From Lineus longissimus (taxonomy: Eukaryota > Nemertea > Pilidiophora > Heteronemertea > Lineidae), in the NCBI RefSeq assembly GCF_910592395.1, contig NC_088326.1, positions 3,663,001 to 3,727,000 of the forward strand: a stretch of 64,000 nt of DNA. Direction: 5' to 3'. Numbering within the stretch: the first letter of the stretch is position 1; the number at the start of each line of letters is the position of its first letter. Under the pieces are notes generated by a model, which searched no databases, had not been told where the DNA came from, and saw only the letters and a program-made list of their open reading frames with translations. The position numbers were made by a program, and so were the translations under genes. Shown here one piece after another: positions 2,910 to 46,738 of this stretch.

Positions 2910-5900
2910 CTGAGACTGTCAAGCTGTGAATATTCGTAAGAGGGCGCTAGGGTAGGGTCCGCCCTCATGATTGCGTCAACTCTAGCGATGAGCACGCTGG
3001 GAAGTTGTTGATAATAGCTGTCAAACTCTTGGCTGTTTCTCTCCCCATCCGCTAGGGGGATTCTTGTGGTTGCTTGAAACCAATTACTGTTTTCAGCGCC
3101 TGGAATAAAGGGGAAATATGAAATTTGTGCACAGTCAAAGAAAGTCGCTGCGGCAGCCACAAAATTTCTATAGTTTGGGTGGCGCGCAAGTGATATACAC
3201 ACCTAGATATCGAGAATTGCTCACGACCGTCCCGAATGTTTAACTTTTGAGTTTTTGTGTAGAGGGCGTTGTAGCAATCCATCGTAATTGCACAACCACT
3301 GTGAAATGTACGAGTATCTTTGTTATTATGCAATAACATCCTGTAACTCTTAGGTAACTTTGACCATCTGACCTCGACTTTTGACCATATGACCTTGACC
3401 TTTGACCTTGCAGTGACCCACTGGAAACAAACCTGAGAAATACACATCAGGAGATCGGGCGGTTGGTTGATTGGTCCGCGTGTACAATTAAAATGACTTG
3501 GGCATGATATATACAGGTGCTTGGTTTTTAAACTTGCCCTGACTTCTCCAATGACCATTGTAGAAGCACTCAACTATAAAAAAACCTGCACTATAGATCG
3601 GAATTTAACCGCAGGCTCTATCCGAAATTCGCAAGCCATCTCCGAAACCCACTCGCAAAACTTCGGCAAAAAGTGTTTGTCATATATAAAACACCGGCTT
3701 CATGTGTGGCGGCCATATGCTTGTATAAAGTGTACAACGTGTATTAAGCGTATGCATAAAGGATGTTTTAAAAAAGAACGTTTATTTATGTTTTTAAATG
3801 TAGTACAGTGGCACCTTATTTAGCGGACAGATCTCTGCAAAGGACACCGTCTCTGTTAAGAGCACCGTGTACCAAGTTGGTAATTTCTATTGAATTTTAC
3901 CTCAGTCTGTAATCAGAACACCGCTCAATTAAGGACAAAATTTGTCCGACCCAATGGTGTCCTTAAAGGCCATATATCAAGGTTTAAAAACATGCTTGAT
4001 ACTCATGAAATATGTTGAGGGTTAAAAAAACAAGATCCCAGACATTAAAAAATTCTAATAATAAAGTCATTATTTAGTTATTTCAATTTTCAATTTTAAA
4101 CTATTTGAATTTCCCACCACACACAACTTTAGATTAGTTCCACATGTGGCCGCTAGGGATTTTTTGATGACGTAGATCAGGTCAGTCAGAACAAGGCAAG
4201 ATGGCTTCCGCATACAGTTCAGAGAGTGAGAGCAGTGAATTTGAGGATGTTTTGGTCGATACAGAAGGATATTTAAATGTTGAGCCGTACATGTTCGAGC
4301 CATTAATATCACCAGATCATAATGAGAGTGATCATTCGGACGAAAGTGATTAGAATTTGTGGTTAATCAATTTGCATGGCAGACCTGCCGATATAGCAAA
4401 GAAGACATTGATAGACGGTTGCAGATTCATAACATGTATGAGGTTTCCACTGAATATGCAGGGGTTGACAGCTGCAATTACCACATTAGTGAAACCTAAA
4501 TAAATAATCGACATTATAATTTCAATGATTTGTTTATTCATCACAGTTCCAGCAGTTGAATCCCGACATCAGTTGAGAGGAAAGATGTTTCCGTCGCAGG
4601 CGGTCGAAGCATCGAAGAAGGTCGAAGGACAGCTCGCCACAGCATCGAAGAAGGTCGAAGGACAGCCTGCAACCGCATCGAAGAACGTCGCAGGACAGCC
4701 TGTCACAGCACTGATTGAGGAGCTCTTCCTCTCCAGGCTTCAGAGCCACGCTGAGAACAGGAGCGGGGATACACTTCACCAGGTCCGCAAGTACTTCTCA
4801 AGTCAGCGCAAATTTGCCAATTACGTCAAGCACACAGTAACAGGAGTGAGCCGGCCAAATCGAACCAGACCAGCTAGGAAGCTTTCCATAGTAACGATGA
4901 CCTCTCACTTTGAGAGCAACTCGTTTTCAGTCTCGTCGGATCGTTTCATTCTCGACTTACTGACGGATTCGGGTACAAGTCGACTGACCCGGGAACAGAG
5001 GGACATGGCTGAGGTCTATAGGGACATGGTGCCTAGCATCCAGATGTTCTCCTACGCTCGGTCAACACCGCGTGAAAACCTTGATGCCATCATCAAGGCA
5101 AGCTTCGGCGCTCAGTTCGTCTTCTACCCAGCTCTGCAAGGCAGGGCTGCAGAGAGGCTGCTCGTACACGCGTTTTTGGCGGGTGGAGTACTGAAAAGTG
5201 GTGATAGGTTAGTGTCGAACAGGCCGTTCGACACGACTTATGGTCATATTGCAGCTGCTGGTCTCACGGTTAGTAGCCTCACACCGCAGGCTTGTCCGAA
5301 AACATACTACGAAGCAAGCTCGGTCTTCATGGGAAACATCGACGAGACACTTTTCGCGGAGGAGCTCGACTTGAGCGAGATGTTGTTGATGACGATGACG
5401 GACAACGGTGGCGGCGGACAGCCTGTGTCTCTGTCTAACTACAAGTTCCTCGCCGAGAAAACACGAGCACAGAACAAACTGATCTGGGTGGACGGTTGTC
5501 GAATCTTTGAAAATGCCGTGTTCATCAAAGCATTCGAGCAAGACAATGAGGACCGCACTATCACTGACATCGTACAGGAGATTCTCTCATTGGCTGACTT
5601 CGTCACCGTAAGTTTCAAGAAGATGTTCGCCCACTCGGGAGGCGCTATCCTGATTAACAAGGCGTCACCCTTGCTTCAGGACAAACAATTATTGAAAAAA
5701 ATGGATGCCTCAATCAAGATGCAGACGACAACCGACTACGGCAATGGCTACCAATCCTACTCTGGCCTCACCGGGGACTCCATGGTTGAGATAATGACGG
5801 GCCTGATTATATCGGCAGATGAAGCCATTACGGGTGAACGTATCGCGCAGGTCGGCCGCGTCAACTGTTACATGCGGCAACACTACCCTGGGTTTCCTAT

Positions 5901-8900
5901 CCTGGCCGGCGGGCATGCCCTCTATGTCGCGGCGGACCAGGTTCTACCCAAGGTGCCGATGGCGAACTGCCCCGCAGAGTACCTCAACGCGATAATGATG
6001 CAGACAATCCGGACACGCGGCGGCTGCCTAGGTCACGTTGTCTACGGTGGAAGAACCGAGCTCCCCTCCGGTGAGGTGGTCTTTCTAAACAAGCTACCGT
6101 TGGATACACTGAGGCTAGCCATCCCGCGCAATCTGTACTCCGACGACGAGTTGATCGCACAGATCAGAGTCATCGGTGAAGCCTTCGTGCGCGGGGCGTT
6201 CACATCTCTTAAAGCGGGGCTCTCTCCAATTGACCACATCGACAGTGGCTTCTATCACTTCGGCGCCAAGTACCATTTCGTCGATGAGAAAGAGTTCTTA
6301 AACGCAGTAGACTACCTGCGAAAAAATTATACAGTGTGTCCTTGAATCGGAACTTATCAATCGTCCGTGTGACAGTGGTTGAGCTGGTTGGCGCCAGTAT
6401 ATAACCCAGCGGGGTGCTTGGGCCGATGGAGTAGGTTGCTGCCTGGTTGTTACGTATTGTTCGTGACAGATGACGCCTCAGCTAGAATACGTCATCCAGA
6501 GATTCAGGCTCTTTTAATCCTACGTCAAATATATTGTCGATTTCGACAGGCGGAGTGTATTGAAAACTAACAGTTATGCTAGGATGGAATACGTTGGAGG
6601 ATCGTTAATAAAGCACTGATTGGTTGTGGTCAGGTAGCGTCTTTTCCGCCACTTTAGGCTGCCATTTTGATAACATGTGACATCAAGACGCATAGTGATT
6701 GGCCATAGCCTCGCCGCCGACGCCAATTCAGGCGGCAATCCGTAGCACACCTGGCTTCTTCGTGCGTTCAAACGCGGCGACACGCGTCAAAAATCAAACA
6801 TGTTAGATATTTGGCGTTTAGTTGCGGCAAGTGGCGGCAAGTCGCGTTCGCCGACGCCGTTCGTAGCAGACTAGGGATTTTTCAGGCGTTCAGGACTCTT
6901 GCGGCAAGAAACGCCTGTGAACGCCGAAGTTGGCGGCTAGTGTGTTACGGGCTTTAGGGACAAAAGGCCGTGTAATGGGCTCGGCCTTTGAGGTAAGGGG
7001 CAAAATAACCTAATGTAGCTGTAATAAAGGTAGTTTTTCAGTGATTTGTAGTCGTTGGTGGTTGGTGATGGGTGTACATGTACTACATTTTATGATTGAG
7101 TAGTGTTGCGGTGGTGGGGTGTTACTTAGAGATTGTTCAAGGGGTACGCTGCTGTTATTTGCTGGTGGGTCCGGAAAATAGAAATGCAGTTATATACAGT
7201 GCCGTATAGTGCAGTTTTCGTGTGTGCAAATTTGCTGAAACTTCGCAATGTTAAAATTTGTAATCAGTACGTAATCACGCAGTTGGATATTTTCAAATTC
7301 AATTACAAATTTCAAACTTTTAACGAACGGCGTAGGCCTTTAAGAAAAACGCGCAACCTTGTATTATCACATCAGTAAACAACTTTTTCATAGAATTTCA
7401 CCCCGCGTCGAATATGTTGATATAAACATCCCCAGGGTGTTTCGAACCCGTGCCAAGTCAGTCAACTATGATATTAGAAGCACTTACCCGTGATTGCCTC
7501 TGGGTTTATAACTGAAAGCATAAATATTAGCAATTACATGTATGAATAATGTTGTGTCGGTCACTCAGGAGCCGTCTTGAAAGGAAGTAGTTGCAGTTAC
7601 TGTAAACACGGCTAGGAGTCCGCAATGTAAACAGCAAGTTTTTCGAAGGCGTTTTATATTCGTGTATTTCGCGAGAGCCGCAATTCGTGAATATAAAAAT
7701 CGCGACAAATTTAAATTTATTACTGAAGTCAGTGATGTGTTTTGAAACCAAAACGACAGAGTTTCATGGCAATTTGACCACTCGCTTCTGAGAGTTAAAA
7801 AGAACGTAATATTGTGCAGCGTGACCTTTACGTTTATTCCTTTATGATATACGGTAGCTACCGTAAAAACATGTTCACTTTGCAAAAACATGTGCTAACT
7901 TTGCCAACACTGGAATGTCTCACAAAGACATATAAAGAGGTAATGTAAAGGGCCGCGACGATTCATTTTATTCGCTGCGACCTGCGACGGGGCAATGACA
8001 ACATGACGATTGTGGTCGAAATGCGGCCGCGGATTGGTTTATTTCAATCACTCGTCATGTTGCCTTGGCTCCGTCGCACGTCGCAGCGACTGAAATCGCT
8101 CGTTAGCGTGGCAGTGTTTCCATTTTAAGAAAGAAATTACTTCATAGTGAAAATTATTCATGAACCCACGAAGTGTTTTTCGGCAGATACCGAAGGGTGG
8201 CAGAATTACCCCTTACCGGCCATAGCATGTTTGACAGACGCCCCTACTCTATTCCAAATCGTCACCAACTCGTGCAGATAATTGCCCATTTGCCTTTCGA
8301 ACCGACCTTACCAAACTACCGAAATAAATACCAAAAGTTCGGTTAAAAAGACACTGCTAAGGTCTATCTCCACATCGCTTGCATCCCACGCGGCGCGTAT
8401 CGCACATGACATTTGTAAGTGTACACTGTCTACGGAGAAAAACCCTGTGCGATATACGCTGCGTGATGTATGCTTTTGATGTGAAGGCCTTCTCGCGCAT
8501 CGGTTCTGTCAAGAATTAATAAAGACTATATTTTATTAATTCTTGGTTCTATTAACTACAGTGGTAACTGTAATCACCTTACTTGGTAACTCCAAATGAG
8601 TTATGACTAAAAGGCAGTAGTTTAGGACATAAATGGAGAAAAGTAACACTCCAAAAATGCACAAAATCGTTGAAAAGTACAATCCGGAGAGAACCGTATT
8701 CGTGACGTCACTTTGTTGCGTCGTCTGCAAAATCCCGAAAATTAAGAAAGGAACTTTTCGTGTCCAAATTTGAAAGAAAGGAAACTTATTAATACAAATA
8801 GGCTAACGTAAAGCAACGGTCTCGAAATAGAAATCATCCGTGACGTCACCGGTGTTCTGTCGTCTGCGCTAATCCAACATGTCAAGATTGAACCGCTCAA

Positions 8901-22686: not shown

Positions 22687-25600
22687 TTAAACGCCTTGGT
22701 ATGAAACTGCCGGACCGCCTTTACACCCAAGCCCCTTGATCCGGAACACAGACCCAGCCAGTGGATCCTGTTCTAAATTCAGTCCAAACATTGCACTTGT
22801 CACGTAGAGCTCATCATAATTTTCTCCGCCGAAACAACATGATGTTATCCGCCTGGCTGGCAGTGCAATTTCTCGCAGGATCTTCCCTAAAAGAAAAATG
22901 GCTGATTACTTGCAGCATGCGATTAGAGTGAGGACAATAGAAGATATTAGAAATCGAATGAAAAGACAGTTGAGGAAGGAAAATGAAATGGGGGATGGTA
23001 GAGGATTTTGGCAAAATCAGTATGAACCCACCAGATGGGTCCAGGTTTATCAGTCGACTCCCCTCGAACACGGCGACCCAGAGGTTCCCATCGGTGTCCA
23101 CAGTCATCCCGTCAGGACATGGCTTCAGGCCGCTGGGGCCTACCTCTTCCCCACTCATGTCAAAGATAGTCCTCTCATTGCCTGGAAATATTGAAAGATG
23201 CCCGAAAATAGGTGTAATATAACCACTTTGATATAACCAAGTAGGTATAAAGACCTACATCTTGATATATCGTAATGTTAGAGGGATATTCGCCGCGACG
23301 TTTGTAATTACTGGTGCTCCAGGAAAATAGAAATAAAGTTATACACAATGCCGCAGTGCACTTACGAACTTGCTGAATTTAGAAAAAAAGGACATCACTT
23401 TGATTTCCCCTTGTCAGCTTCGGCCTATCAACTCCCATGAAGCTGTCAATTCGTGGAGGTCGATGTTATGAAGATTTGCCCCGATAACCCATTGATAAAA
23501 CAGCAGAACAATGGGAATTTTACGTACGTGCGACCGGGCTTTGTTCAAAGACAATAGACCGTGTATTTGGCTAGGGCAGAATTATTTTAACTGCGAACGT
23601 AATGAATACCCTTTACTTACATATATCACCCGTCGTGACGTCATAATCGTAAGCGTAAACGACCCCTGGTCTTGAGTCAATGAAATACATTGTTTTGTTG
23701 TCGGGGCTCCAGCCAAGGCCGTTACTGATTGTGCACTTCTCCCTGCACCGTGATATCGTGCCGTCTGCGTCAAGGCGGTAGAGATTGCCTTGGCCTGGGA
23801 TCAAGGTTGCCGGGTTGGTGTCTATTTTCATCGATCCTGGAAGTGATAGGACAGGCCGGCTTAAGGATTGAATATATAGGCACCACCATTTTGGCAAGAA
23901 CTCTAAAGCCTAAAGAAATTGGAACTCTTTCAAACCGAAGTGAATGCCCATTTCAATGGTTGGACAGCTTGACCCGCAATGTTTTGATATCGCTAAATGG
24001 TGACGCAAACGCATGAGAGTCAGGATGGCTCTGCCTATGGTCAACCCTTGAAGGGAATATATGATAGCCGCAAACGACTAGACTTTTCGATCAAAATGAC
24101 AGGACTTTTCGATCAAAATGACTGGACTTTTCGACCAAAACAACGACGTTGCAGAGACCATTGGCTGTCAAAGCAAGCCGACACGATATCAGTTGTGCAG
24201 GGCCCGTCATGATGACGGACAAGATTTTTCGCGGAACCTGAATTAACTAAAGTCGGCGCCAAAAGTATTTTGTGCTCTTGAACGAAATTGTCGGATTGAT
24301 GCATCAATATTCTTACCTGCAAACAGCCTTCCTTTGGGGTCACACTTCGCGTCATTGAGCCTGTTTGGTAAACCTTTCTCGACCTCCGCCAGAACCTTGC
24401 CGTCTTTTGGAGCATCCCATTGAAAGTGAAGGATCTTGTTGCCGACGCCCGCCACGTAGCCGCCCCGAGAGTGCGGGATGGCGAAGCCGGTGTAGGTACC
24501 TAAAAAGGTGAGGGATTATGATGAGTTTTCTCGACCTCGGACAGGGCTCCCGGCGTACAGACCTTTCCCGTCTTCAGGAGCCTCCAAGACAAGAGTCTAG
24601 GAGTCTGATCTTACTCTCACTGTCGTAACCGAGGCTGGAGAACCAGGCAAGCTTCCCACTGGACCTTGTGTGCGGCTTAAACCGCGTGGTAGCCGCCCTT
24701 ATTAGAGTACCGGCGAAGCCGTTATGCCCCTAAAAATGTGATGGAATAATCATCAACACCTTCCCGTCTTTATATCAGGGACACCCGATTAAACGTGAAT
24801 GAATTCGTTGCCGACGCCCGCCAAGTTCTGAGCCGCCTCTGGAGTGCGGCATGGCGAAGCCGGATGTACCCAAATAAATGATGGTTATCAACGCAATCCC
24901 ACTTACTACCGAGAAAAGGTTTTGGAGGAAGAATTGGATAGTGGGAACGAACCCCTTGAAAGGTTAGACACCAGCTACTCCACCCGGGCTGGGAACTTGA
25001 TAGTTCTTTTAAACCAAATGACGAGGACGAAATCACTCTTTTTCAGGAACTAAATCGGGCCTACCATAAACCTACCAAATGATACTTTCTCCATCTGGTT
25101 CGTCTTGGAGTGCCACCTATGGACGATCCCCCCAGTCAGGTCGACGAAGAGCAGGGACTGCGTCTTCTCCTCCCAGAATGGACCCTCCCCGAGTCCGGGA
25201 ACGGCATTCTTGATGACTGTTTCAACTTCGACCTGTGGAATGGAAATGCATAAGGACTACTGTAAAGTCGGCTCTGTCCTATATGTGGATAGAATCGGAG
25301 GACAGATACACCTCTCCAGAAATGGGGCGCTGAGTGTCCGAAATAGTGATATCATAAGGGGAAACTAGGCCTTATGGTGGAGGGACAAAGGAGATATTCA
25401 TGGTTGACCAACACACTTGAATGCCTTTAATGACGGACAAGGGGGAAAAAGTTAGTTCCAATGCAAGCCACCAATTTCGGGAAGCATGTTAAGTACTGTA
25501 AAATCGGTCCGGCCCCGTCCTGTATTTGTCTTGAAATGTCCAAATACATGAACAGTAAAACCGGCTCCGACCCGTCCTGTAGTGTATTTAGACAACACGG

Positions 25601-29178: not shown

Positions 29179-32100
29179 TTAAACGTACGTCATCCTATCC
29201 GTCGAACCACCCGCTGTGTACTTGTGCGGCGCCCGCACGATACTGCCCGTTGCCCGTCGGACCTCGGGCGCTGGTTTTAGTCTCACTTTATTGCGTTGGT
29301 TATCTGGGATAAGGCCAGTGTTCTGAAATGATAAGAGGCGAGACATTTGAAGATTCGAATTTCAAAAATGTAATGATATCAGGAAATCAAACTTGTGTTT
29401 AGAGTAAGAAAACTCCTTGGATTGGGCTGATTTTAGTGGCTACTCTTCAGATCTGACGAGCTTCGCTATTTTGGGAGAGCCTCTTCAGAAATAGCGGGCG
29501 TTAGCAACTGCTGGAGTCTGGCAATTCGTAAAATACTTTGCAAAGGGTAGATCAGTCACAGGAAGTGTGATAATTAGGCTTTGTGATGATATCTGCATGA
29601 TTTTAAAAGCATTTGGATTGGATTGAGTCTCAAAAGCCCTAGCAAAGTGTAAACACGCAGAGCAATATGTAAAAATTCCCTAAATTTGCTTGATCTTGGT
29701 GAGGCATATGGCCAATTTTGGCAAAGCAAGTGTTTTTAGATAAGCCAGACTTTGAAGTTTCACATGAAAGAAGACATTTTGTTCAACTGCTACATTTCAG
29801 TTGGATATTACGGAACATTGGAGCGCTGTTCTATCGTGACGTGGAAAAGAGACGCAGCCAGGGATGTTGGAGGGCGACATTTTCTGAAAGACCAGATAGA
29901 TACATGTATGCCAGCAACGCCATGAATAGAGACGAAGGCTGTGACAGACTGTTGCATACAAACAACTTCCTCGAGCCATCCCAGGATGTCTCAAGGGTCC
30001 ACGACCTAACCTGTTCTTGATTTTACGAAAAGTGCTTGTCTTTTTGAGGCAAGAGGCTAAAGGAAGCTACAGCTACGAGGACTACAAGAAAATTCTCAAG
30101 AAACTTTATGAAAAGTTGGCAAAACTTTATAAGTAATGTGAACAATTTTGGAAAATGGTGACTTTTGTGAAAACTGTTGCTTAATTTGCAAGTGAAGCCA
30201 GCCTGTGCAAAACTTGTGATAAAATCTTGAAAACTGTGTAACACTAGACAGAATAAAAGCCTGTTACCATTGGATACGGTTTACGATTTGTTTTGTGATT
30301 GCCAGACATTGGAATCTGGCTAACAATAGTTTGATGAGGTCTTTATGGAGAGTTCTTATAAAGCGCTTTTCACTGTATTGTCTACTGTCTCAAAGCGCTT
30401 TACAATCGCAGACATCGTTACCCTGCCTATCCAGTAACCTCTCTGAAGAACCAAGGGCAGCCTTAATCCAGCACACACGAGGACATTTCAGGCCATTTGA
30501 GAGTTTATGCCACTGCGCTCCCTGTGTTGATGTCCAAAGAAGACAACGCGCTAAATGTACAGTGTGTTCCAAAAAATTAACAGACCTGCTCTTATCAAGT
30601 GTTTTATTGAACACACACAATTGCTGTGCAAATCACATACAAATCACAAAACACATCCAGTGGAAACACGCATCATAAGCAGACAAAATCGAATTGATAA
30701 TCTACAAACTGTTTCACGAGAAAATCACTAGACATTATTAGTTACATTTCTGATTCTGATTTTGTTTCTGTCCCTAGCTGGGATGAGGCCAGCATTCTGA
30801 AAAATAAGGTGATTACAATATTCATTAGACATGTTAGATGATTACTAAAATATGATACAGCAATGTTGATTAGTTTATTATAAACCTGAAACAGGAAAAT
30901 GAAAGGACATCTCGTTAATTTGTCCACAATAACTCATCATGGTATTCTATATAAGAGACTTAAGTTACCTTAGATTAAAAACACTGACATATCAGAAGAC
31001 AGAATTAAAATTTCCATGTTAAAATGTCGTTTTAAACAGTTGGAAGACAAGTTACCTTTTACCTGATAGGGAACCACCACAGAGAGTGTTACTGTCTTCA
31101 CAAATTAGAACGCAGAGGTAAAAAAATCAATCCACACCAGTTTGTTATTGGTTGTGATTCGGAACTGACAATTCAGTGAAACGAGGGGGTTAGTATAAAT
31201 AGCATTCCGCGAAGATGACGTCACTGCAGCTGCTGCCCTCTATTTCCCCATCGCTGAATTACAGGCAATGTTGGACAAACATGCGGTTTCGTAATGGATT
31301 CAGGCTTTCTAACTGGGGCAGTTAGATTCAATCTGGCACATGTCCGAGTGTTGGAAATACTACATAATTGTTCTGAATATTTCTCTTTCTGACTCTATAG
31401 TATCATTCATGCTAAAAACAATGCAGGGTCAAAGATAATTGACTTTGAAATAAGCTCAAATGCGTAGAAATAAGTGTCGATGTCCGACTGTCACGTGACT
31501 AAAACGTCATCAATATCTTATGCAAATGACCTTGTGAGCTATAAATAGTAACTTCGCGGAATGCTATTGTGCACCAGCAAACGGCTGACGGCTTACCCAT
31601 GCTACTAGCAATACTAGCTGGTCCCGGTTTTACTAGATGTGACCACCAGTATTCCTGATAAATTCAAAGTAAATTTATAGAGAACTCTTTGAGGAGACTG
31701 TCTGAAAACTCTTTTTTTTAGTTCTCAAAAGAGCAATACCTTCTACATTAGATAAAATATATTTGATGTTAAGAAGCTAAACTTTCATTTTCCCTTTGTT
31801 GCAAATGTAAACTATGTTAAAGTGATACTATGATGTGATTTACAACTTTGCGGAAATACGTCCGTTTTTAATTGTTGATCACAAATGTAAAGCTCAAATT
31901 TTCCATTTTTGATTAGATTTATTATAAAATCGCAGAATGTAAACCACCGCGACCGCGAAAAAGTTCATGTTGTGACGTCATCAACGAAAACGGCATCGAA
32001 GCGAGCCGTCAGGGCGGGATTAAACCATCAATTTCTAGAAAATGTGCATTTCGATTCGAAAACCTTACCGATTTATGAGAAAGTGACATAGTCATTTGTC

Positions 32101-35100
32101 GAAAACAGCTAAAACATTATATGGTGAAATTTGGCACGAGTTACCCTTTAAATTTCTTCAAACTGCTTAAAGGCTAGGTGTTGGCAAAACTTTGGCGATA
32201 ACAACTTCGTCAAATCATCCACCAGCACCATCAGTGATTAATAATTATTCAACGAATGGATAAAGGGCCCGTTGTTTTACCTTATACCAAGACACGTAGT
32301 TTAGTTATTAAGGAATTAACGATAAGTGGTGAAAAAGGATTACGACATACACAGTAAATTTGGCCCCTCAATGACTGACATGGATGCCACAAGGATCCCA
32401 ATCTAAAATGTAAAGAAATATAACCTCACGCTCGCTGTTTTGATTTCAAATCGTACAATCCAAAATCAAAGTCTGCATCAAGTCTGAACAATGGAAAAAT
32501 GGAAAAATGGAAAATTTTTCTTGACTGTTTTAAATGAAGTTGAAGCAATGAAATAAATGATTATTTTATTTTGTTATTATATTTATTTTGAGATGAAAAA
32601 CGTGTTTACCTTTCCACTGTGCCAGTCGACTATATTCTCTTCTTCTTTCTGACGTTTTTTATCCTGAAATAATGAAGCCGATCAGAATATGAGTGTGTAT
32701 CAATGCAATTTTCTCGTGGAACCAGTTATGGCTAATAGGATACTTACAAATCACGGTGTCAAAGTGGTCAATAGAAGTGCATGAAATTCAAACAAAATTA
32801 ATATTTAATAAATATTAATTTACAATTAATATTTTTAATTATTAAATTAAAATTAATATTTTAATTATTAAATTAAAATTAATATTCTAATTATTAAATT
32901 AAAATTAAAATTTTAATTATTAAATTAAAATTAAAATTTTAATTATTAAATTAAAATCAAATTTTAATTATTAAATTAAAATCAATATTTTAATTATTGA
33001 ATTAAAATTAATATTATAATTATTAAATCAAAATTAATATTTCAATTCAAATATTGACCTCATCATCACAGCAAGACCGGGCGCATTAAATAGAAGATAA
33101 GCCAACATGTCACCAGGAGATAATGGAAGAAATTGATGTACTCAGATTTCATGATCGGCAGACAACAGTGAAATAAACAACCAGGCCGTCTCAACCTGCC
33201 AAACTTAGAGGGCCATGCACCTGGTTTTGCTGTGACGGGTCACATATGTCTGTGGAGAATAAAGAAAAGAACTTATTTATGAAAGGCTGATCAATGATAC
33301 TCACAAAATGACTAAATACACAACTGGCAGGAATCCAAAGGATGACGGACAAAACCAGGATCGTCCCAACTAAATTATCTCGCATGAATTTCACTGAAAT
33401 GGAAGCAATAGATCATTAGGAAATGGGCCTCATTCATTGACGCTTACACCAAGAACTGATACCAGTCATGGAAAAAAACACTTTCATCAACTTGATAGAA
33501 AAGTTCAAGTCTCAATATATGAACTGCATAACGACAACTGCACTGCAGACTCCTCCAGTACCCAAAGCGTCTGCAGCTCGATACAACTGCCTCCTGCAAA
33601 CGCGGACTTGGCAACTAGGTAACTTTTGCAGGATTGTCCCCTGATGAATAGAAGACAGAACTCTTGCCAGAGCCTGTGGGGAAGACCTGCAGCGAATTTT
33701 CCCCTCGCACCAGCTGAAGATATGATGGTTACTTGAAATTTCCCCTTGCACCGGCTGAGGATATGATGGTTACTTGAAAATTCCCCTTGCACCAGCTGAA
33801 GATATGATGGTTACTTGAAATTTCCCCTTGCACCAGCTGAGGATATGATGGTTACTTGAAATTTCCCCTTGCACAAGCTGAGGATATGATGGTTACTTGA
33901 AATTTCCCCTTGCACCAGCTGAGGATATGATGGTTACTTGAAATTTCCCCTTGCACAAGCTGAGGATATGATGGTTACTTGAAATTTCCCCTTGCACAAG
34001 CTGAGGATATGATGGTTACTTGAAATTTCCCCTTGCACAAGCTGAGGATATGATGGTCACTTGAAATTTCCCCTTGCACAAGCTGAGGATATGATGGTTA
34101 CTTGAAATTTCCCCTTGCACAAGCTGAGGATATGATGGTTACTTGAAATTTCCCCTTGTACAAGCTGAGGATATGATGGTTACTTGAAATTTCCCCTTGC
34201 ACAAGCTGAGGATATGATGGTTACTTGAAATTTCCCCTTGCACAAGCTGAGGATATGATGGTTACTTGAAATTTCCCCTTGCACAAGCTGAGGATATGAT
34301 GGTCACTTGAAATTTCCCCTTGCACAAGCTGAGGATATGATGGTTACTTGAAATTTCCCCTTGCACAAGCTGAGGATATGATGGTTACTTGAAATTTTCC
34401 CTTGCACAAGCTGAGGATATGATGGTTACTTGAAATTTCCCCTTGCACAAGCTGAGGATATGATGGTTACTTGAAATTTCCCCTTGCACAAGCTGAGGAT
34501 ATGATGGTTACTTAAAATTTCCCCTTGCACAAGCTGAGGATATGATGGTTATTTGAAATTTCCCCTTGCACAAGCTGAGGATATGATGGTTACTTGAAAT
34601 TTCCCCTTGCACAAGCTGAGGATATGATGGTTACTTAAAATTTCCCCTTGCACAAGCTGAGGATATGATGGTTATTTGAAATTTCCCCTTGCACAAGCCG
34701 AGGATATGATGTTTACTTGAAATTTCCCCTTGCACCAGCTGAGGATATGATGGTTACTTGAAACTTGAACGCTAAAAAAGGAAAAGGAAAGAATGAGACT
34801 AGACCCTTACCGACAGTGTCTATTGATAAATCTTCTATGATATTCCAAAAACGTTGTATCATATCTTCAACCTGCACCCGACAGACACCCTATAGGGGAA
34901 GAACAAGAGAGATGCAAGGTATTTTTCTATCATTATACAATATCACAATATATTATACATATTTCTTGCGTGCAACTACAGTTGGGCACCAAATATTCTC
35001 TTTACCTTTCGATATTTCAATAAATAGCACATTGTACAACACGTGTTAGTTTTGTTTCTCATTCAATTTCAAGGTACGAGACAATCAAAGGTAAAAGTGA

Positions 35101-38100: not shown

Positions 38101-41100
38101 ATTTTATATGGCCTAAGCATCTCACCTGCAGGTGGCACCACTTCTGAGCTTACACTCGCTATCACAACAAGGATCTTGATCTTGCTGGCCCGCGATACCT
38201 CCGTCACATTCCTCTCCGGTTTCTATCTTGTTGTTACCACAGAACGCTTTACCCGGAACTGAAATTTAATACAGAGCTAGAATTCATATTTTGAGGTCTT
38301 AATGCATAAATATCATCTGGCATGCCTTATAAGTCCATTTCTACACTTAAAACGAAAAATAAGGTTTGGAAGACTTGGAATCAAGACGGGTACCACAAAC
38401 GTATATACTGTAAACCCAAAAAATATACGCAGCCACATTATTTGACGGTTTTGTGAAAAAGCTAAGTTCACACACTTTTTGAATTCTGCACTTTGACAAC
38501 CCATAACGGGAATTTTGATCAAATTTTAATTTTTGCGGCCATATTTTTCAGCGGTAATTTGTAAATGTGCAAAAAAAAAGTCTCGCAAACATTTCCAAGC
38601 ATACAGTATTTCTTCAAAGGCAAGTTTCATACTCACTATATTGTGAAAAACACTGGTTAGATTTCGACCTCAGGACGGCGGCTATATTTCTTCTGCTGCA
38701 TGGCGAAAAATGCTGGAAAGAAAATCACCAAATTAATCATGGAATCGAAGTTTTTTGTGAATTATTTTAGAGCTATTTTAAATTGATTAACGTGAAGTCA
38801 ATGGCAATACAGTAGAACATCTCTACTAAGGATGCCCTCTGGACTGACAAATGCTGTCCATTATAGAGAGGTGTCCGGATTAGAGAGGTCAAATTGAATG
38901 GAATCAACCAATTTGGGACCAAAACTTGTGTCCTTAATAGATAGGTTGTCCTTAATAGAGTGGGTGTCCTCAATAGAGAGGTTGTCCTTAATAGAGAGGT
39001 TGTCCATAATAGAGAGGTTGTCCTTATAGAGAGGTTGTCCTTGATAGAGAGGTTGTCCTTGATAGAGAGGTTGTCCTTGATAGAGAGGTGTTCTTAATAG
39101 AGAGGTGTCCGCTGATGGAGATTCCAGTGTAAGGACATTAGAACACGGCGAGGAGAAACGAAATTTGACCAACTCAGTGACCACCATACCTTGTTATTTG
39201 CTTCATATCCCGACACCGAGTACGGGAACATGATGTATTTTCCGCCCTTGAATGCTGAGGGGGAGCAGTCTCCCTCCGGGTCGTGTTCACTGCCCCAGTT
39301 GTGACCTGAAATAGTATGGGAACATTAGACTGTAAACCACCAAATTTTCCCGTACTTTTTTTGGGGCAATTTGCGAAAATTTCTGAAAACAATTCTCATG
39401 GTACAGAAACCTGGGCCACAACACTGACAGGAAAAAGGCTGGGTGCCTTTGAGTTTGACATGTGCTGTCTAAGCCTTCATCTTAAGACCAGGTGGTTCGA
39501 TCGTGTCAGCAACACTGAGATCACGAGAAGAACAGGTCAGCCGCCAGTTTCGCTACGGGTGAAAAGGAGCATATTCAATGGTTTGGATATGTGTGTGTCG
39601 AATGGAGTCAGCAAGACTTCCCAAGATAGTGATAGAGTGGCAATATAATAATACATGTATATATAATAGTGTGACGCATTTATATAGCGCTCCTCAGTAA
39701 CGTAACTGTTAAAGCGCTGTGGGATATCATATTATTACCCCGGTCTCCACAGAAATCAATCAGAGGTTTCAAGGAGCAACCAGAAGGCGCTAACTTGAAC
39801 TTGACCAGTCGGGGAACCAAGGAGTGACTCGGCCGGGAGTCGAACCCACGACCTCCTGATCATGAGGCCGACTCTCTTCCACTGCGCTACCGCTGCCAAT
39901 GGGAGAATATTAGAGGAAATTGGCAATGGGGACAATGCCGGACTCCCTGGCTGGATGTTGTACCCTGTGATGCAGAGTGCTGAAGTTGCAAGTGAGGTGT
40001 TGACGCTGACGGCTCTGACTGTAATGCCTGGAGAGATGTGTGGCAGAGTTGACATAGAACAGTCAAGTTGCAGGAGTGAGTGAGTATGTTGAGTTGAAAA
40101 TAGTGTGACTCCATTTTGATGATCTAAGACACTCAAAATTCATCCGAAATCCACAAAATGGTGAAAGTATTACTCGAAGGACATTGTCACCTTTGGTCTG
40201 TATGGCCTCCGAAACAGTATCTTGTCCAAATTTAAAGGGTAACTCGTGTCAAATTTCACCATATAATATTTCAGCTGTTTTTGACAAATGACTACGTCAC
40301 TTTCTCATAAATCGGTAAGGTTTTCGAATCGAAATGCACATTTTCTAGAAATTGATGGTTTAATCCCGCCCGGGCGGCGCGCTTCGATGCTGTTTTCGTT
40401 GATGACGTCACAACATGAACATTTTCGCGGTCGTGGTGGTTTACATTCAGCGATTTTATAATAAATCTAATCAAAAATGGAAAATTTGAGCTTTACATTT
40501 GTGATCCACAATTAAAAACGGACGTATTTCCGCAAAGTTGTAAATCACATCATAGTATCACTTTAAGTGTTTGAACGAGTTCTGTGTGTCTGAGATTCGC
40601 GAAATGGCGTCACTAAAGTTTCGTCTTATTTATTAGGACAAGTCAACAAGAAAGTCCCACCCAAGGGAAGAGGAGTATGTGAAACCATCATCACCACCTA
40701 GTCCTAATTAAGCATGCCATGTGTCCCTGTTCTAAAACACCATTTTCAGGTTACGTGTTTTTAACTGACGTCACCATTACCAATCAAATTGTTATGTTTG
40801 AAAAAAAAATTTGCCCAAGGTTCAGTCGAGCGACCGCCCAACGGAACCAGGGGTGGACGGGTAGCCGTCACCTTCTGGAGGGTCATGCATACTGCCCCAG
40901 CTATGTCCTGAAATAGTAAGGGCACGTGATTTATTCATCCCCTCAAAAGACCGGCCAACCCCAGGAATTTCCAAGTAGTATTTCAAATGGTTTTTGAGTA
41001 TTTTCAGCCAAATTTTCCCAAATTATGATAATTCTCATGATTTCTACCAACATCCAAAGTGAAATTTTTATGCGTTTTCCTTTGTGAAATCTGTCAGCCA

Positions 41101-44100
41101 AAAAATCATTTTCATTAAGAAATAAATTGATTGGAGCTGCTCTGTTCTTCATAACTGTAATCACAGCAGGCATTCAAAACGACTCGGACACTTCTGACTC
41201 CGAGGAGACCTCAGTTCACTTATGGCTACTCTGGGTCAATCTTTGCCTAGTTGGCCATATTCCTGCAAAAAACCCACAATAGAGGTTCTTAACGTGACGT
41301 CACAACGTGACGTTTTGACGGCCACCTGCCAATGCATTTCCTTTACGTCGTGACCACGTGTGACGGCCAATATGGCAGTGCAAAACAATTGGCAACGTCA
41401 TCATGTGACGTCAGTGAGGAAGCTCTATAGTCCATTGGGGCCTGATTTAAGCCTGTCCGGAGAAAAATACCAAGTGTCAATAGCCTGAATGAGGGGGTAC
41501 AGGGTGTACATTGACTGCTGCATGATCTGCCCCTCCCTTTGTTGATTATTGGCATTGTAGACGAACTTACCAAGTTCATGGGCGCTGACCAGATCGGCTT
41601 CCGACGTAAGGATGCGGTTGCCGTAGCGATTCTTGCCGCTGCTCCAACCTGAGTTGAGCGAGAAGGTCTCGCCGTCCTCATAATATGCTGGAAGAGCGAT
41701 GAACTGATGTTAAAGGGACAATAGAGGCAGTAGCTAGGCAGGCAAGAGAAAGTTACACAAAGGGGTCTCTCACATCTCACAGTACGTCGAATTGATTCAC
41801 GCTTGTACGAGGGATATATTTAGTGCTGAATCTGATATGACCCAGGACCCTTACTGTGTATATTAGTCACCTGAAGATGGCCAATTTGACCCCCTGCTCC
41901 TGCCTATACATATCAATGCAATGAGAGATCCTTCTGTCGCAGGTCGCTGTGATTAAAATCGCTAGTTTGCGCCATGCGTGCGGCAACTTACAAGATGAGC
42001 AGATTCCACCGACGCTGTAACGTCTCGGCGAGGCAATATACGCCAGGCCCAGGACGCCACCCTCGAAGGCGTAAAACGTAAACAGATGATGAAGACAGAA
42101 CGTCTTGTACTGTTCCCCCTTACTGAACGCCTGGAACGCAATCAAAAAGATTTTAGTTTCAGTCAAAATGAAATGGCCAGGGGGCTTTTGCTCTGTTCAG
42201 GCCTCTCAGTTACATGATTCCTACACCGTACAACGGTGTAGGCCGTACAGGATGTCCCCAAATTAAGTCTTTTTTTCTTTTTTTTAAAAAATAATATGAC
42301 CCCCTGAAGCGTTTTTTGACCCCCAACATAACCAAATCTCATCCAAATGGCCTAATTTTATAGTTTTACCCTAAAATTATGATTTTTCAGGTGTATGTGG
42401 TGATATCAGTCACTAACTTTGATTTATGACGTCGCTGTTCAGGCAAATTGGCGCGATGAAATGTCCCCAAATTAAGCCAAAAAGCAAAAAAACATGTCCC
42501 CTAAATTAGGCTAAAAAAATACAGGGTGTAGAGGTCTCCACGTAATTGAAAGGCCTGCTGTCTTGTCGCCAGTTAGGGTACATGTTCCGATCTTTCTAGC
42601 AGACAGACTAGTACAGCTTCTGTGTCCAGCCTAATCTGCTGACTCAAGCCACTGCTTGGCAATGACTTTGGAGCTGAAATATGTCATTACCTGGCCAATC
42701 ATCAAATGGCACCGACATCTGACAAAAATAAAACAGGTGGTACAAAGCTGTCCTCAAATCGTTCTTTTTCAGTCAATTTTAAAATTTCAAAAAGCCACTC
42801 GTTACGAAAAATACATTTTTGGACGAATTGTCTAGTTCCCAAAATCATCGCAGCAGAATGCTGTACTTGTTCATTCTTTAGCGGGTAGGTTAAAGTCCGA
42901 AGATACACAAACTGAACGGCTAATCCCAAGGGCCATCAGAGCAAACTTGATAACACCAACCCCCATGAAACACATCATGTAGGGGTCCTTACGCTAGGAA
43001 ACGTATAGGTAGCAGGATGGCCAGCCTTCTATTTTACCTTCAATAAATCCTTTGTCTCCCAAGCCTTCTCCATGTTATAATGCACGTCTCCAGGAGCGAC
43101 CTTCTCGGGTTCTGTGTGGACTGTGATCTAAAGGGGAACAAAACTGGATAAGGGGAAAGTATTTAGAATTTCCAGTTCATTGGTCGTGCTCAATTGGGCT
43201 GTAGATCTCGCAGGTTCATCCCCGCGCACACAAGCAATTCAAATTGCTGCTACGTGCAACAAAAAGATCTCTTGTCTGGGGGTAAAACTGGTAAGAAAAG
43301 AGTTTCAACTTATCAGTTAATACAGGTCCTGACAGAAGCAGTGCACTGAAATCTTCTCAATGGTGCAGACAAGAGCATTTGAAAACTTGCAAAAGTTGCT
43401 AAAAGCCATGCCGAAAAAATTGAGATAAATACGGTAAAATGAACCTGACATTGACAGAACCCTCGACCTGAATACTAGTTGCTTAATTGCAAATCCCCAA
43501 AATTTCATTGAAACTCAAGTAATAAGACATCGCTTTTAATGCAAAAACCATAATAGTTGAAGGGTTGCATTACTGGGACTGAATTTAGTAGCTTTGCATC
43601 TGAACGCAACATTTTTAGACGAATCTTACCTCCTTGATTTCGAAACCGAAGTTTTTGTACGACGCATCAAACTCCACTCGACGGTAGAGTGCATCGACGC
43701 GGCTTATAAGTCCAATCTGGAAATACAGTGTAGGAATATTTCAATGTCAGCTGACGAGTTTTTCAAAATTTTCACTTTTTGCCCTGCCGTTTTTTACAAG
43801 TGGCGAATGCATTTCCATTTAAAGCAGGGCCGCTGCACCCTGTCTTTTCGGGCAGTGCCCATGCTTTATAAAGCTGTGTATATTTGTCTGTTCCACGAGT
43901 TTCAGCAAAATCAAGAATTAATTTTTGAGGATTTTTTTGCGATGATTTATCGGGATACGGCCGGAAAACAATGGGAAGACTGCAACGTGTTCACTGTACA
44001 GGTCATCAAGGCACTTGAAGTCAAAAATTAACAGCCCAACTGCAAAATCTTGGCAACAACGGCCGAAAATGAAAACCCACCAAATAATTTGTAGTATGCA

Positions 44101-46738
44101 CTAAATTTTTCTTCCCCATATTTTCAAAGAATCGATAATCGGCCGTTAGGCCTAGAGGGCAGGTGTTCTTCAGAGGTATAAAGGCTCGCTTCTCTCGTGA
44201 ATGTACGTCGTCCTTTTCTGTCCCGGTGTCGTTAGATTTGGAGGACGTCTCCGCCGATCCTGGCGGCCGGACAAACTCGCAGTATTTCTTCCTGAAAATG
44301 TCAATGAATTTCTTATGATACGGGACGCATCGAGGTGAAGGACAATGCTCAGCCCGCTAGGACTCCTGATATATTGGTGGAGAGAAGCCTGTTTAAGTTT
44401 TTTTAGACGAGGGATATATTTTTTTATCACCACTACCTACATGTACCTGAACTTGATTAGCGGAAAGCAGTTCTACTCACATCACGTCAATAGAGTTCCA
44501 AAGCTCTTACACAATGGTCTTACCCCAGGGTTTCCACCAGAGGGGGGATGGGGGATGGCGGGGGGGTGGGGGATGGAGGATAGGGGATTCATCCCCCCTA
44601 AAATATTTCAAGGGGGGGATATCCCCCTTAATTTTGAGCACTCAAGTTTGTTTTACTGTCAAATGAGTAATTTTCATGATTTGATATGTAAAATAAGAGC
44701 ATTTGGGAGCTAATTGTAGCGGTTTTAAGGCCAAAAAACGTCTCAGGAGGGGTCATATTGGTGGCGACAAAAATCAGGGAAAACATTTCTTATGCATGGA
44801 TCATACTTACTTGAATCCATTGGTTTGATTTTTATCAAACAAAGATTTGACGTCTGAACCTTTGTACGTGATCATGGTGTAGTTGGGAGACTGAGGTAGA
44901 TGTCCCCATGATGGCTGAAACACATAAATATAGTTTTGATGTCTGAACCTTTGTGCTTGATCATAGTTTAGCCCGGGGATCGAATTAGATTGCCCGATGG
45001 AGTTGGCATCTGAACCTTTGTGTGTGACCATGTTACTATTTAATCCCTAAAATTCAACTTTAATGGAAGGGGTATGGGACTAATTTCAACTATGTAACCA
45101 GCGGACCACCACAGCTCCAGACATACCTCAATCACATACGTGTCTTCGGGTGTTTTGATGGTGGCAGATATTGCGTTATCCTCCCAGTATGCGTGCACCT
45201 CGGAATGTGTCTCCCCCGACACGTGACCCTTGTAGAAATTACCCGGATCTATCCCAAACTGTTCCTTAGTGCCATCACCCTTACGAGCGTAGGCTTTGAA
45301 ATCTTGTGCCAAGACATGGGAATCTGGCTGGAGGTAGACACGGAAATGCCTGCAAGCAAGAAATAAAATTACGTTGCAATTTCACACAACTGCAAAATGA
45401 AATAGCTCGAATATTTCTGGGTCTGCAGTAGATTTTCCTACCCCTGGGCATTTCACTAGGGACTCATGATAAGTTCATACTAGGCCTTTTATCGAAAGTG
45501 GACCAATTTTATCAGCAGTGAGTACTGTATGCAAAAAAGTTGAAATGGCTGGGAAACTTTTAAGTATTTGGCTTTAAATGCTCATTCTTGGTCATGCTTT
45601 GTACGGAGTCTGGCAAAGTAGGAATTTTTAGATGCTACGAACGTTGAACCTCTGGATGAATCAGAACTTTTGCTAAAAACCTCTGCTTTTTGACCATCAA
45701 AAATCCGATTGCCGTTCTGTCATGAAACGGACAGGTAGCTATAGATCCATGCACTTGATTGGGACCAACGTTTACATGACGTAGTGTTGGCCGTCGTCAC
45801 GTCACCATGCATTTTACATTACTGTTACGTGACGAGACGCGACGTTTTCGTAAACGTTGGTCCCAATTAAGTGCATGGATCTATAGCTTTACCTTCCCAG
45901 AGTTGAAAAGTCCAACTTTTTCATGTGCCACGGTCCATCCAGACTCCTCTTCACAATCTGATGGTTCACGTCATTGATATGCATCGTCTCATAGTGGGAA
46001 AGGGAGTCAGATATGTCAGCTGAAAGTGAAAGGCGAATGTGTATTGAATATGATTCAATGACGCAAGGACGGTAAAAAACCCTAGTGGTGATGATCATCC
46101 CCGCCCGGCCTTCAATTCAAAACAGCCCCCCGCGATTCTTTTCAAAAATAGCAGACAATCCATCAGACCTCGTCAGAACACAGGCCACTGAAGCTTGTTA
46201 TACCGTCAATAGCGAGGGCCGCCGGCTGTTAGTGCTAGGCCCGAGTGGATAACTTTGAGGCCTTCAAGTCCCAGCTATCCACCCTCCCGAGACTTTAGAG
46301 AATTCAGATGATTGTACATAGTTTTTAAACCGCACCGACTAGACGTTTTATCGCTCCGCATGCACACAGCACCATATGATCAATTACGTCCCGAAAGGAA
46401 CCCGATCATTATAAGGATGAAGATGAAGATGAAGAGTGAGTGAGGTGCGAAGGACAGAAACTGAGAGGGGTGGCAGAGCCAGAGAATTCATGAACAAGTA
46501 CAGTGAGAGAGCATGAGAGATGAGAGAGAGTGGAGCCGAGATAGTCTTTTAGTCTTGGCTCTTGCATGCAAAATGCAAATCCCAATGCCAAAATAAAATG
46601 TTCCTTCCTTGAATTTGAAAGTTCAGTTGAATGTTGAGAAATCCAGTTCGAGATTTTATTCAACTCACCAACGATCACATTTCCTAACAGTGAAAGTACA
46701 CCCGCAATGGTTTTGACTTTGCACAAGGTATCTAGCAT
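29179..46738 (-). CDS. ADAM17: ADAM17 (TACE) membrane metalloprotease, about 20 exons
   Basis: Exons: 46738-46669, 46019-45893, 45349-45127, 44914-44811, 44291-44081, 43716-43630, 43127-43038, 42130-41992, 41687-41571, 39305-39190, 38712-38637, 38258-38126, 37884-about 37780, 36374-36321, 36068-35989, 35534-35404, 34889-34811, 33393-33305, 32663-32610 and 29322-29179 (TAA). Phases match throughout except at exon 13/14. About 742 aa (human 824). Order: signal peptide (1-23), prodomain with cysteine-switch-like KYC (C179), furin site REKR (207-210), catalytic domain with zinc motif [11 protein letters not shown] (387-397) and Met-turn [10 protein letters not shown], disintegrin and membrane-proximal Cys-rich parts ([29 protein letters not shown]), CANDIS-like [20 protein letters not shown] (628-647), one TM helix (655-675) and a short basic tail. 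ADAM17 sheds TNF, EGFR ligands and Notch at the plasma membrane. The CANDIS-like segment separates it from ADAM10. Exons 4, 10, 13 and 20 have extra copies in neighbouring introns. Confidence 0.93.
30335..30415 (+). mobile_element. SINE/LINE tail fragment
   Basis: TTATAAAGCGCTTTTCACTG and CTCAAAGCGCTTTACAATCG repeat the AAGCGCTTTACA-type 3' tail shared by the LINE at 49.1 kb and the SINE at 39.7 kb. No head is recognisable. Confidence 0.4.
30728..30796 (-). other. Alternative or relic copy of the ADAM17 terminal exon (exon 20')
   Basis: After the acceptor TATTTTTCAG the frame set by exon 19 reads [22 protein letters not shown] and stops at TAG. The distal terminal exon (29322-29179) reads [16 protein letters not shown] and on for 47 aa. 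The first eleven or so codons and the acceptor region are clearly homologous, then they diverge. Because this copy is open and ends in its own stop, it could serve as an alternative last exon giving a shorter, basic cytoplasmic tail. Without transcripts this cannot be told from a relic. Confidence 0.55.
31198..31568. mobile_element. MITE family A, copy 1 (371 bp)
   Basis: Terminal inverted repeats AATAGCATTCCGCGAAG and CTTCGCGGAATGCTATT bound a 371-bp element. An almost identical copy of the same length lies at 62237-62607, so movement was recent. It has no coding capacity. It lies in the intron before the ADAM17 terminal exons, about 400 bp upstream of exon 20'. Confidence 0.9.
31818..32152 (+). 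mobile_element. TTAA-ended MITE family B, copy 1
   Basis: About 335 bp with short imperfect TIRs (TTAAAGTGATACT and, inverted, TTAAAGGGTAACTC). It matches 40231-40566 in inverted orientation over its whole length. A 60-codon ORF is conserved in both copies but shows no family resemblance. TTAA ends recall piggyBac-type elements. Confidence 0.8.
32795..33056. repeat. AT-only tandem repeat
   Basis: A satellite of TTAATTATTAAATTAAAATT units, almost free of G and C, about 260 bp, period near 30. It lies between ADAM17 exons 18 and 19. Confidence 0.9.
33696..34763. repeat. 41-bp minisatellite, about 26 copies
   Basis: The unit contains GAGGATATGATGGTTACTTG and AAATTTCCCCTTGCACAAGC. Period 41, very homogeneous in the middle, with edge variants (CACCAGC for CACAAGC). 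It lies in the ADAM17 intron just before the transmembrane exon, ending 48 bp from exon 17. Because 41 is not a multiple of 3, no long frame runs through it. Confidence 0.95.
35713..35853. repeat. Dispersed AGAGAGGTGTCC-type repeat, copy 4
   Basis: ACAGTAGAACCTCTCTATTG at the left and TTAATAGAGAGGTGTCTGCT, then AAGGAGGTTCCACTTTACT at the right: a well-preserved copy in an ADAM17 intron. Confidence 0.75.
36126..36318. repeat. Dispersed AGAGAGGTGTCC-type repeat, copy 5
   Basis: A well-preserved copy ending AGGGAGGCTCCATTGTACTT, with an internal duplication of TCCTTAATAGAGAGG. Its right end runs to the donor site of ADAM17 exon 14 (donor GT at 36320). Confidence 0.75.
36623..36740. mobile_element. 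Hairpin MITE family C, copy 2 (118 bp)
   Basis: Same termini as 13185-13302, with arms paired over about 40 bp each. Flanked by AAG on both sides, again a 3-bp duplication. It lies between ADAM17 exons 13 and 14. Confidence 0.85.
37964..38070 (-). pseudogene. Decayed copy of ADAM17 disintegrin exon 13
   Basis: Minus-strand sequence TGCCAGAACTGCAGGCTTGC, then ATGAAGCGTCCCCACTTGGC, matches exon 13 (TGCCAGAATTGCAAACTTGC and ATGAAGCATCACCACTCGG) with scattered substitutions and small deletions that break the frame. It sits in the intron just upstream of the real exon. Confidence 0.65.
38811..39133. repeat. Dispersed AGAGAGGTGTCC-type repeat, copy 6, internally expanded
   Basis: Starts ACAGTAGAACATCTCTACTA. 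Between about 38940 and 39105 an 18-bp unit (GAGAGGTTGTCCTTGATA) is repeated about nine times. Lies between ADAM17 exons 10 and 11. Confidence 0.8.
39655..39898 (-). mobile_element. tRNA-derived SINE
   Basis: On the minus strand the head carries a Pol III A box (TAGCGCAGTGG) and B box (GGTTCGACTCC) with a tRNA-like stem pattern at 39898-39825. A body follows, then a tail with CCACAGCGCTTTAACAG and GAGCGCTATATAAATGCG, like the LINE tail at 49.1 kb. It sits in the intron between ADAM17 exons 9 and 10. Confidence 0.7.
40231..40566 (-). mobile_element. TTAA-ended MITE family B, copy 2
   Basis: Inverted copy of 31818-32152, diverged by roughly one base in fifteen to twenty by eye. With copy 1 it forms an 8-kb-spaced inverted pair within the ADAM17 introns. 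Confidence 0.8.
40822..40907 (-). pseudogene. Second copy of the ADAM17 zinc-motif exon (exon 10')
   Basis: After an intact TATTTCAG acceptor the sequence reads, in the phase required by exon 9, (G)[16 protein letters not shown] and then diverges, reaching TGA after 28 codons. The true exon 10 (39305-39190) reads (G)[15 protein letters not shown]. The His and Asp of HELGHxxGxxHD are preserved, and the flanking intron bases (CCTGAAATAGTA) also match. If spliced it would end the protein inside the catalytic domain. It is either a decayed duplicate or a poison/alternative exon. Confidence 0.75.
41735..41915 (+). repeat. Dispersed repeat pair, copy 1
   Basis: GGGGTCTCTCACATCTCACA, CAGTACGTCGAA, ATGACCCAG and TCACCTGAAGATGGC recur in the same order and spacing at 49888-50070. 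No ORF, no clear termini. In the ADAM17 intron before exon 9. Confidence 0.65.
44930..45033 (-). pseudogene. Two partial copies of ADAM17 exon 4 core upstream of the real exon
   Basis: Exon 4 contains ATGATCACGTACAAAGGTTC followed by AGACGTCAAA. Two further minus-strand copies precede it: ATGGTCACACACAAAGGTTC near 45031-45012 and ATGATCAAGCACAAAGGTTC near 44968-44949, the latter followed by AGACATCAAA. Each is about 30-40 bp, about 60-100 bp apart, so the motif occurs three times in about 190 bp. They look like remnants of tandem duplication of the exon core. Confidence 0.6.
45737..45888. mobile_element. Palindromic MITE (152 bp)
   Basis: AGCTATAGATCCATGCACTT at the left pairs with AAGTGCATGGATCTATAGCT at the right, and GGGACCAACGTTTAC with GTAAACGTTGGTCCC. 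It ends five bases from the exon 2 donor of ADAM17 (exon end 45893), so the element forms part of the intron 5' end. Confidence 0.85.

Follow-up and report, generated by a model that had tools for sequence, protein, structure and literature searches.

A probable archaeal-type tryptophanase gene pair in the bootlace worm Lineus longissimus

The window analysed here, a stretch of 64,000 nucleotides, is part of chromosome 19 of the bootlace worm Lineus longissimus (phylum Nemertea) and carries at 4525-6345 of its forward strand a single-exon open reading frame (ORF) for a tryptophanase-like protein, without internal stop or frameshift. The gene is intact and chromosomal, it belongs to an old duplication with purifying selection acting on both copies, and its product possesses the fold and the catalytic residues of tryptophan indole-lyase (TIL). 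We consider it probable, at roughly two chances in three, that this is the chromosome 19 copy of a two-gene family encoding a pyridoxal phosphate (PLP)-dependent tryptophanase of a divergent archaeal-type lineage with further members in DPANN-type archaea and in a ciliate transcriptome, which was acquired horizontally and retained. The enzyme is likely to produce indole, and we infer a horizontal entry, in the simplest case straight from an archaeal source or by way of a microbial eukaryote.

A separate clade with archaeal members and two copies in the worm

The ORF lies in the longest stop-to-stop stretch of the window (613 codons, with 202 for the runner-up) and matches the beta-eliminating lyase family PF01212 of Pfam with 79.2 bits (E 4e-22) against a gathering cut-off of 27. 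Statements on protein matches refer here and below to the listed ones, which are the best 120 of about 7,800 scored. Among them 38 proteins form a set of their own, 31 of them found by the first search and another seven, which are shorter and 45–61% identical, by a profile search. In the first search the E value jumps from 1e-84 to 4e-42 between this clade and the ordinary tryptophanases, and the window protein is 38–57% identical to the clade members P0002–P0031 versus 27–36% to TnaA-like proteins. The named members are Lineus, Woesearchaeota (P0007 and P0017), Micrarchaeota or Micrarchaeia (P0023 and P0024), an uncultured archaeon (P0021) and, through an MMETSP transcript from EukProt (P0124), the ciliate Strombidium inclinatum.

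For the phylogenetic tree 34 outgroup rows were chosen by hand among the TnaA-like proteins, and seven of the 74 rows, being shorter than 400 amino acids, were excluded. In the remaining 67 rows a clade of 32 is split from 35 TnaA-like rows with a support of 100/100. Within this clade the two Lineus copies pair (100/100) and are joined by five further proteins (100/99), by P0006 and P0008 (98/79) and by the Woesearchaeota protein P0007 (99/91), while in a tree restricted to the C-terminal half, from which 3 of 40 rows were excluded, the ciliate protein joins the group that contains Lineus (95/91). Constraining the Lineus pair to ordinary TnaA changed the log-likelihood by -39.8 units (approximately unbiased test, p-AU 0.0036), placing the pair outside the bacterial TnaA lineage. 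A scan of 84,980 prokaryotic species genomes, made with two exact peptide patterns only, returned three clade loci, all of them from Micrarchaeota. Clade matches of at least 440 bits were found in 3/301 Micrarchaeota genomes, and six more genomes gave weaker matches (238–304 bits), presumed to be ordinary TnaA; the occurrence of the clade in prokaryotes looks rare. One Micrarchaeota locus (L003:5722-7431) encodes a very divergent clade member of 569 amino acids with an end branch of 1.27 and QCR replacing the QGR loop, which on these features might have a different function. A protein labelled Idotea baltica (P0111, 34% identical) is flagged UNVERIFIED_CONTAM, clusters with the TnaA-like rows and is likely a contamination posing as an animal tryptophanase.

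Neither viruses nor plasmids offered a source. None of 80 pattern-matching stretches in viral contigs encodes a relative, phage records gave three TnaA-like matches (29–30% identity), and the 16 matches in BFVD at E <= 0.001 are 9–13% identical and represent other PLP enzymes where they are named. All 77 plasmid records remain below 60% identity, and the ten listed (28–33%) are tryptophanases where annotated by name.

The closest match, P0001, is 75% identical, is annotated as 'tryptophanase-like [Lineus longissimus]' and is encoded exactly on chromosome 7, likewise in a single open frame (562 codons). It has the same catalytic set with Ser for Thr147 and differs from the window copy in its chromosome, in the lack of the N-terminal repeat array described below and in being annotated. 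As no identical protein was found among the matches, the window copy may be unannotated. Within the stretches compared blastn aligned the copies over 4681-6318 only, so that similarity ends near the coding region and the flanks share none. Over 541 aligned codons dN is 0.144 and dS 0.87, giving an omega of 0.166 and 0.167 by two methods (bootstrap range 0.133–0.217), where neutral evolution of one copy after the split would lead one to expect about 0.52–0.58. This pairwise dN/dS of 0.17 shows that both copies have been under purifying selection. Differences between them are rarer in columns that are invariant across eight near relatives (13/161) than in variable ones (88/304; Fisher p 6e-8), and each copy has 31 private departures. 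It is dN/dS that carries the argument against decay, because a neutral simulation that counts stop codons only is weak (20/300 runs were still stop-free at about 13% amino-acid change). Both Lineus genes are resident, old and constrained.

These results bear on a preceding sequence-only reading of the window, which had described the ORF as a bacterial-type tryptophanase acquired horizontally by an ancestral animal and not decaying. The 606-residue frame, a tryptophanase-type beta-eliminating lyase with its full catalytic set in an animal chromosome and the absence of decay were borne out, and the horizontal origin is likely. The term bacterial-type has to be given up, as the tree puts the Lineus pair in a clade that is separate from bacterial TnaA and has archaea as its named prokaryotic members, and acquisition by an ancestral animal finds no support, Lineus being the only named animal among the listed clade members.

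Predicted fold and active-site residues

The structure predicted for the window protein shows a confident type I fold of the kind found in TIL and tyrosine phenol-lyase (TPL). Equivalent residues were assigned by pairwise alignment to an E. coli chain, by multiple alignment and by a spacing check in the TnaA-like rows, and conservation was counted in an alignment of 50 sequences, in 17 TnaA-like rows and in the ungapped clade rows. The roles of the residues were taken from TIL structures of P. vulgaris, in which D133 and H458 recognise the indole N-H and the D133A mutant is inactive on Trp, and the roles of T124, R381 and F448 in phenol binding by TPL come from the same source (PMC11301627). 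P. vulgaris T50, S52, Y72*, R101, F132, D133 and N194 correspond to T147, S149, Y177, R207, F235, D236 and N294 of the window protein, and D223, S263, K266, R414, H458 and F459 to D323, S363, K366, R530, H578 and F579. Accordingly, the PLP- and substrate-binding residues of TIL (T147, S149, Y177, R207, N294, D323, S363, K366 and R530) are all present, and so are the indole-recognising D236 and H578, each in 31/31 ungapped clade rows. All catalytic equivalents are identical in every ungapped clade row and in 17/17 TnaA-like rows except T147, which is Ser in the chromosome 7 copy and one further row. At Tyr177 the pairwise alignment to the E. coli chain is shifted; the alignment to 8sbg and the multiple alignment both give Tyr. 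In contrast to TPL (EC 4.1.99.2), the window protein has D236, L502 and H578 instead of the phenol-binding Thr124, Arg381 and Phe448, at positions which we take to be equivalent.

Q205-G206-R207, D323, K366, R535 and H578, named as landmarks in the sequence-only reading, are invariant or at least 90% conserved in the 50 sequences. The assignments of QGR, D323, K366 and H578 hold, and R535 was mislabelled: the equivalents of R530 and H578 are 44 positions apart in 15/17 TnaA-like rows (47 in the other two), as are Arg414 and His458, versus 39 or 42 for R535. This spacing rules out R535 as the arginine for the substrate carboxylate and assigns that role to R530.

With these residues a TIL-like reaction can be proposed. 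L-Tryptophan would form an aldimine with the PLP carried by Lys366, with Asp323 at N1 of the PLP, the substrate carboxylate would be held by Arg530 and the indole N-H by Asp236 and His578. Tyr177 of the partner subunit would then protonate C3 so that indole departs, and the remaining aminoacrylate would give pyruvate and ammonia, the net result being a cleavage of L-tryptophan within the worm's own cells.

From TnaA/TIL (EC 4.1.99.1; 1ax4 from P. vulgaris and 2c44 from E. coli) the window protein differs by an identity of only 26–28%, by its separate clade, by scores under the curated cut-offs and by a stretch of about 130 residues ahead of the core. Beta-eliminating lyase-related proteins from Woesearchaeota and Micrarchaeota (P0007, P0024 and L001) belong to the same clade, are 44–49% identical and have the motifs TDNGGGGQP, DACR, RGCGLG or near and GFYHF in common with it, the window copy showing RGGCLG versus the archaeal RGCGLG.

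Coding extent and genomic surroundings

The first approximately 20 codons of the 606-codon frame are probably non-coding and may belong to an intron or the 5' untranslated region. Translation is likely to start at the ATG at 4585 or in an upstream exon, because similarity to the chromosome 7 copy begins only at residues 19-22 (GKMF) in the protein and at nucleotide 4681 in the DNA. A CAG resembling a splice acceptor ends at 4546 and is weak, as 231/926 CAG sites of the window have as many pyrimidines in front of them; a splice acceptor lying 5' of the two copies was rejected for being no better than these. The 11-residue repeat unit of the N-terminal extension is present once in the chromosome 7 protein versus 3.1 copies in the window ORF, and residues 1-54 are predicted with a pLDDT below 50. 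About 170 nt upstream of the tryptophanase-like ORF ends a short ORF at 4201-4353 encoding 50 acidic amino acids (MASAYSSESE...) without Pfam match. The positions of all features are collected in Table 1.

Table 1. Features of the window, with positions counted from its first nucleotide.
Feature	Position	Strand	Basis
ORF of 606 codons for a tryptophanase-like protein of archaeal type (beta-eliminating lyase, PF01212)	4525..6345	+	ORF, Pfam, homologue searches
Coding extent regarded as more likely, starting at the second in-frame ATG (residue 21)	4585..6345	+	inference from start of alignment with chromosome 7 copy
33-nt in-frame tandem repeat, 3.1 copies, 11-residue unit, N-terminal extension	4608..4710	+	repeat search
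Tyr177, equivalent to P. vulgaris TIL Tyr72* (proton donor to indole C3)	5053..5055	+	Tyr in 17/17 TnaA-like rows
Arg207 of the QGR loop, equivalent to Arg101	5143..5145	+	alignments
Phe235-Asp236, equivalent to Phe132-Asp133	5227..5232	+	alignments
Asp323, equivalent to Asp223 (PLP N1)	5491..5493	+	alignments
Lys366, equivalent to Lys266 (PLP Schiff base)	5620..5622	+	alignments
Arg530, equivalent to Arg414 (substrate carboxylate)	6112..6114	+	Arg in 31/31 ungapped clade and 17/17 TnaA-like rows; spacing
Arg535, second conserved arginine	6127..6129	+	Arg in 31/31 and 17/17 rows
His578-Phe579, equivalent to His458-Phe459	6256..6261	+	His-Phe in 31/31 ungapped clade and 17/17 TnaA-like rows; spacing
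AATAAA polyadenylation-like signal, about 260 nt past the stop	6607..6612	+	motif only
Spliced regucalcin gene (SMP-30/SGL), 16 kb from the ORF	22690..25232	-	Pfam, exon joining
ADAM-type metalloprotease, two exon pieces (propeptide, disintegrin)	38125..45381	-	both under Pfam cut-off

That the neighbouring genes are spliced, as had been read from the sequence, is confirmed by the regucalcin gene, which consists of five exon pieces, each about 150-220 nt long. The joined exons agree with the L. longissimus protein P0204 in 298/299 residues, the two differing at the first residue and in three residues omitted at one junction. This identifies the host as a nemertean and not, as had been suggested, an acorn worm, and a link to the brominated indoles of acorn worms falls away because of this. 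Trp_halogenase (PF04820) gave no match in the worm genome in an exon-wise search, which is no proof of absence and found its control in 5/14 genomes. An intron of the regucalcin gene contains at 24773-25042 (minus strand) a degraded second copy of an exon (GFAMPHSRGG...), which matches the live exon at 80% over 45 nt and is a relic of an exon duplication. None of ten candidate flanking stretches scored above the Pfam cut-off, the best being a weak Rpp21 match at 7568-7894 (21.6 versus 29.3 bits), and no Rfam family reached its gathering score across the window. Three kinds of repeats were observed: a tandem array with a 41-nt unit at 33571-34854, where 25 overlapping registers are 67–97% identical to a 300-nt reference, a 300-nt direct pair at 31198-31497 and 62237-62536 (97%) and a 339-nt inverted pair at 31817-32155 and 40228-40566 (96%), both pairs possibly being mobile elements. 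Elsewhere in the worm genome three further PF01212 pieces (L006-L008, C1:18142154-18144501) probably belong to an exon-split threonine aldolase gene.

Alternative explanations and biological meaning

Several observations weigh against a retained archaeal-type tryptophanase. The window protein misses the NCBIfam tryptophanase cut-offs (PRK13238 with 212 of 285 bits, TIGR02617 with 142 of 826 and NF053783 with 161 of 750), and the chromosome 7 copy and two archaeal clade members also stay below 285 bits (226, 252 and 278), a value exceeded by two ordinary TnaA-like proteins (514 and 688 bits). Only PRK13238 is telling here, because the ordinary TnaA-like protein P0032 also fails both equivalog cut-offs. 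TIL and TPL are not told apart by the fold scores, with TPL entries at the top of the VIA and Foldseek lists, and the substrate is only deduced, because identity to any solved structure is at most 30% in the listed rows. The private departures of the window copy are weakly skewed off the invariant columns (6/161 versus 25/304, p 0.08), and at positions invariant in the eight near relatives this copy alone departs at six and the chromosome 7 copy at five others, so some functional drift of the copies is possible. The chromosome 7 copy has a GC content of 0.495 and a lower GC3 of 0.556. Finally, we are unsure about the donor and the route of transfer.

The same fold and chemistry might serve another job, namely elimination from a cysteine- or tyrosine-like amino acid or mainly the reverse reaction from indole to tryptophan, an alternative that we regard as unlikely but worth taking seriously, as it sits badly with the conserved Asp236 and His578 and with the replacement of the presumed phenol-binding positions of TPL. 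It would agree with the low identity to solved TIL and TPL structures and the missed cut-offs, with the eukaryotic tryptophanase of Blastocystis, reported to prefer the reverse direction and to make tryptophan (PMC8448343), and with the activity of TIL on S-ethyl-cysteine in vitro (PMC11301627). A decaying, non-functional duplicate could explain the missing identical protein and the six private changes at otherwise invariant positions, and is very improbable given a frame without stop or frameshift, the low omega and the equal numbers of private departures. A little less credible still is an ordinary bacterial tnaA moved into the worm: TnaA has the same catalytic set and the ten best plasmid matches are TnaA-like, but the higher identity to the clade, its full support and the topology test all contradict this origin.

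Vertical descent from the archaeal ancestor of eukaryotes, followed by loss nearly everywhere, would account for archaeal and eukaryotic members in one clade and for the similar N-terminal extension of the Woesearchaeota protein P0007. It would require very many losses, with Lineus and one ciliate as the only named eukaryotes and a distribution that is patchy in archaea as well, and we give it hardly any weight. Contamination or an assembly chimera, suggested by the single exon and a GC content of 0.53 versus 0.41 in the flanks, is close to negligible, since the ORF (GC 0.527, GC3 0.63) resembles the host regucalcin exons (0.539 and 0.611), two diverged copies are located on two chromosomes and, apart from the chromosome 7 copy, no listed protein is more than 61% identical. 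The assembly itself (391 Mb, with 13.63 Mb for chromosome 19 and 21.16 Mb for chromosome 7) is a HiFi/Hi-C chromosome assembly that combines PacBio long reads at 79-fold coverage with Hi-C data (PMC8593623).

An animal gene annotated as tryptophanase is not itself new, because Boya et al. 2021 list animal tnaA from Saccoglossus, corals, octopus, Limulus and others, which have this annotation in common with the Lineus genes (PMC8537960). The main text of that article does not contain the word Nemertea, and the only archaea appearing in Tables 1 and 2 there are haloarchaea and Aeropyrum. Its animals are probably on other branches than the Lineus clade, because none of them is named among the listed members. 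TnaA homologues of DPANN archaea have already been counted, with two from DPANN and 61 from CPR in the table given in PMC7567580. In the open literature, outside of which most subscription journals lie, we found no paper connecting tryptophanase with nemerteans, nor one describing a smell of L. longissimus mucus, and by a term search an article on its peptide toxins (PMC5864730) has no mention of smell, odour, odor, pungent or indole. As far as the open literature goes, the novelty lies in the host phylum, in the archaeal-type lineage, in a duplication whose two copies are both under selection and in the apparently unannotated copy.

Returning to the archaeal-type tryptophanase, a wider scenario can be drawn in which a DPANN-archaeal lineage of the enzyme spread into a ciliate and into nemerteans and was, after duplication in the worm, selected as its own indole-producing or indole-salvaging pair, independent of gut bacteria; we see the odds for and against it as even. 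Indole is generally regarded as a bacterial product that reaches animals from microbes. If the proposed function is true, two selected chromosomal genes would let a ribbon worm make or reclaim indole itself, and an archaeal-type source would join the short list of horizontally acquired metabolic genes in animals.

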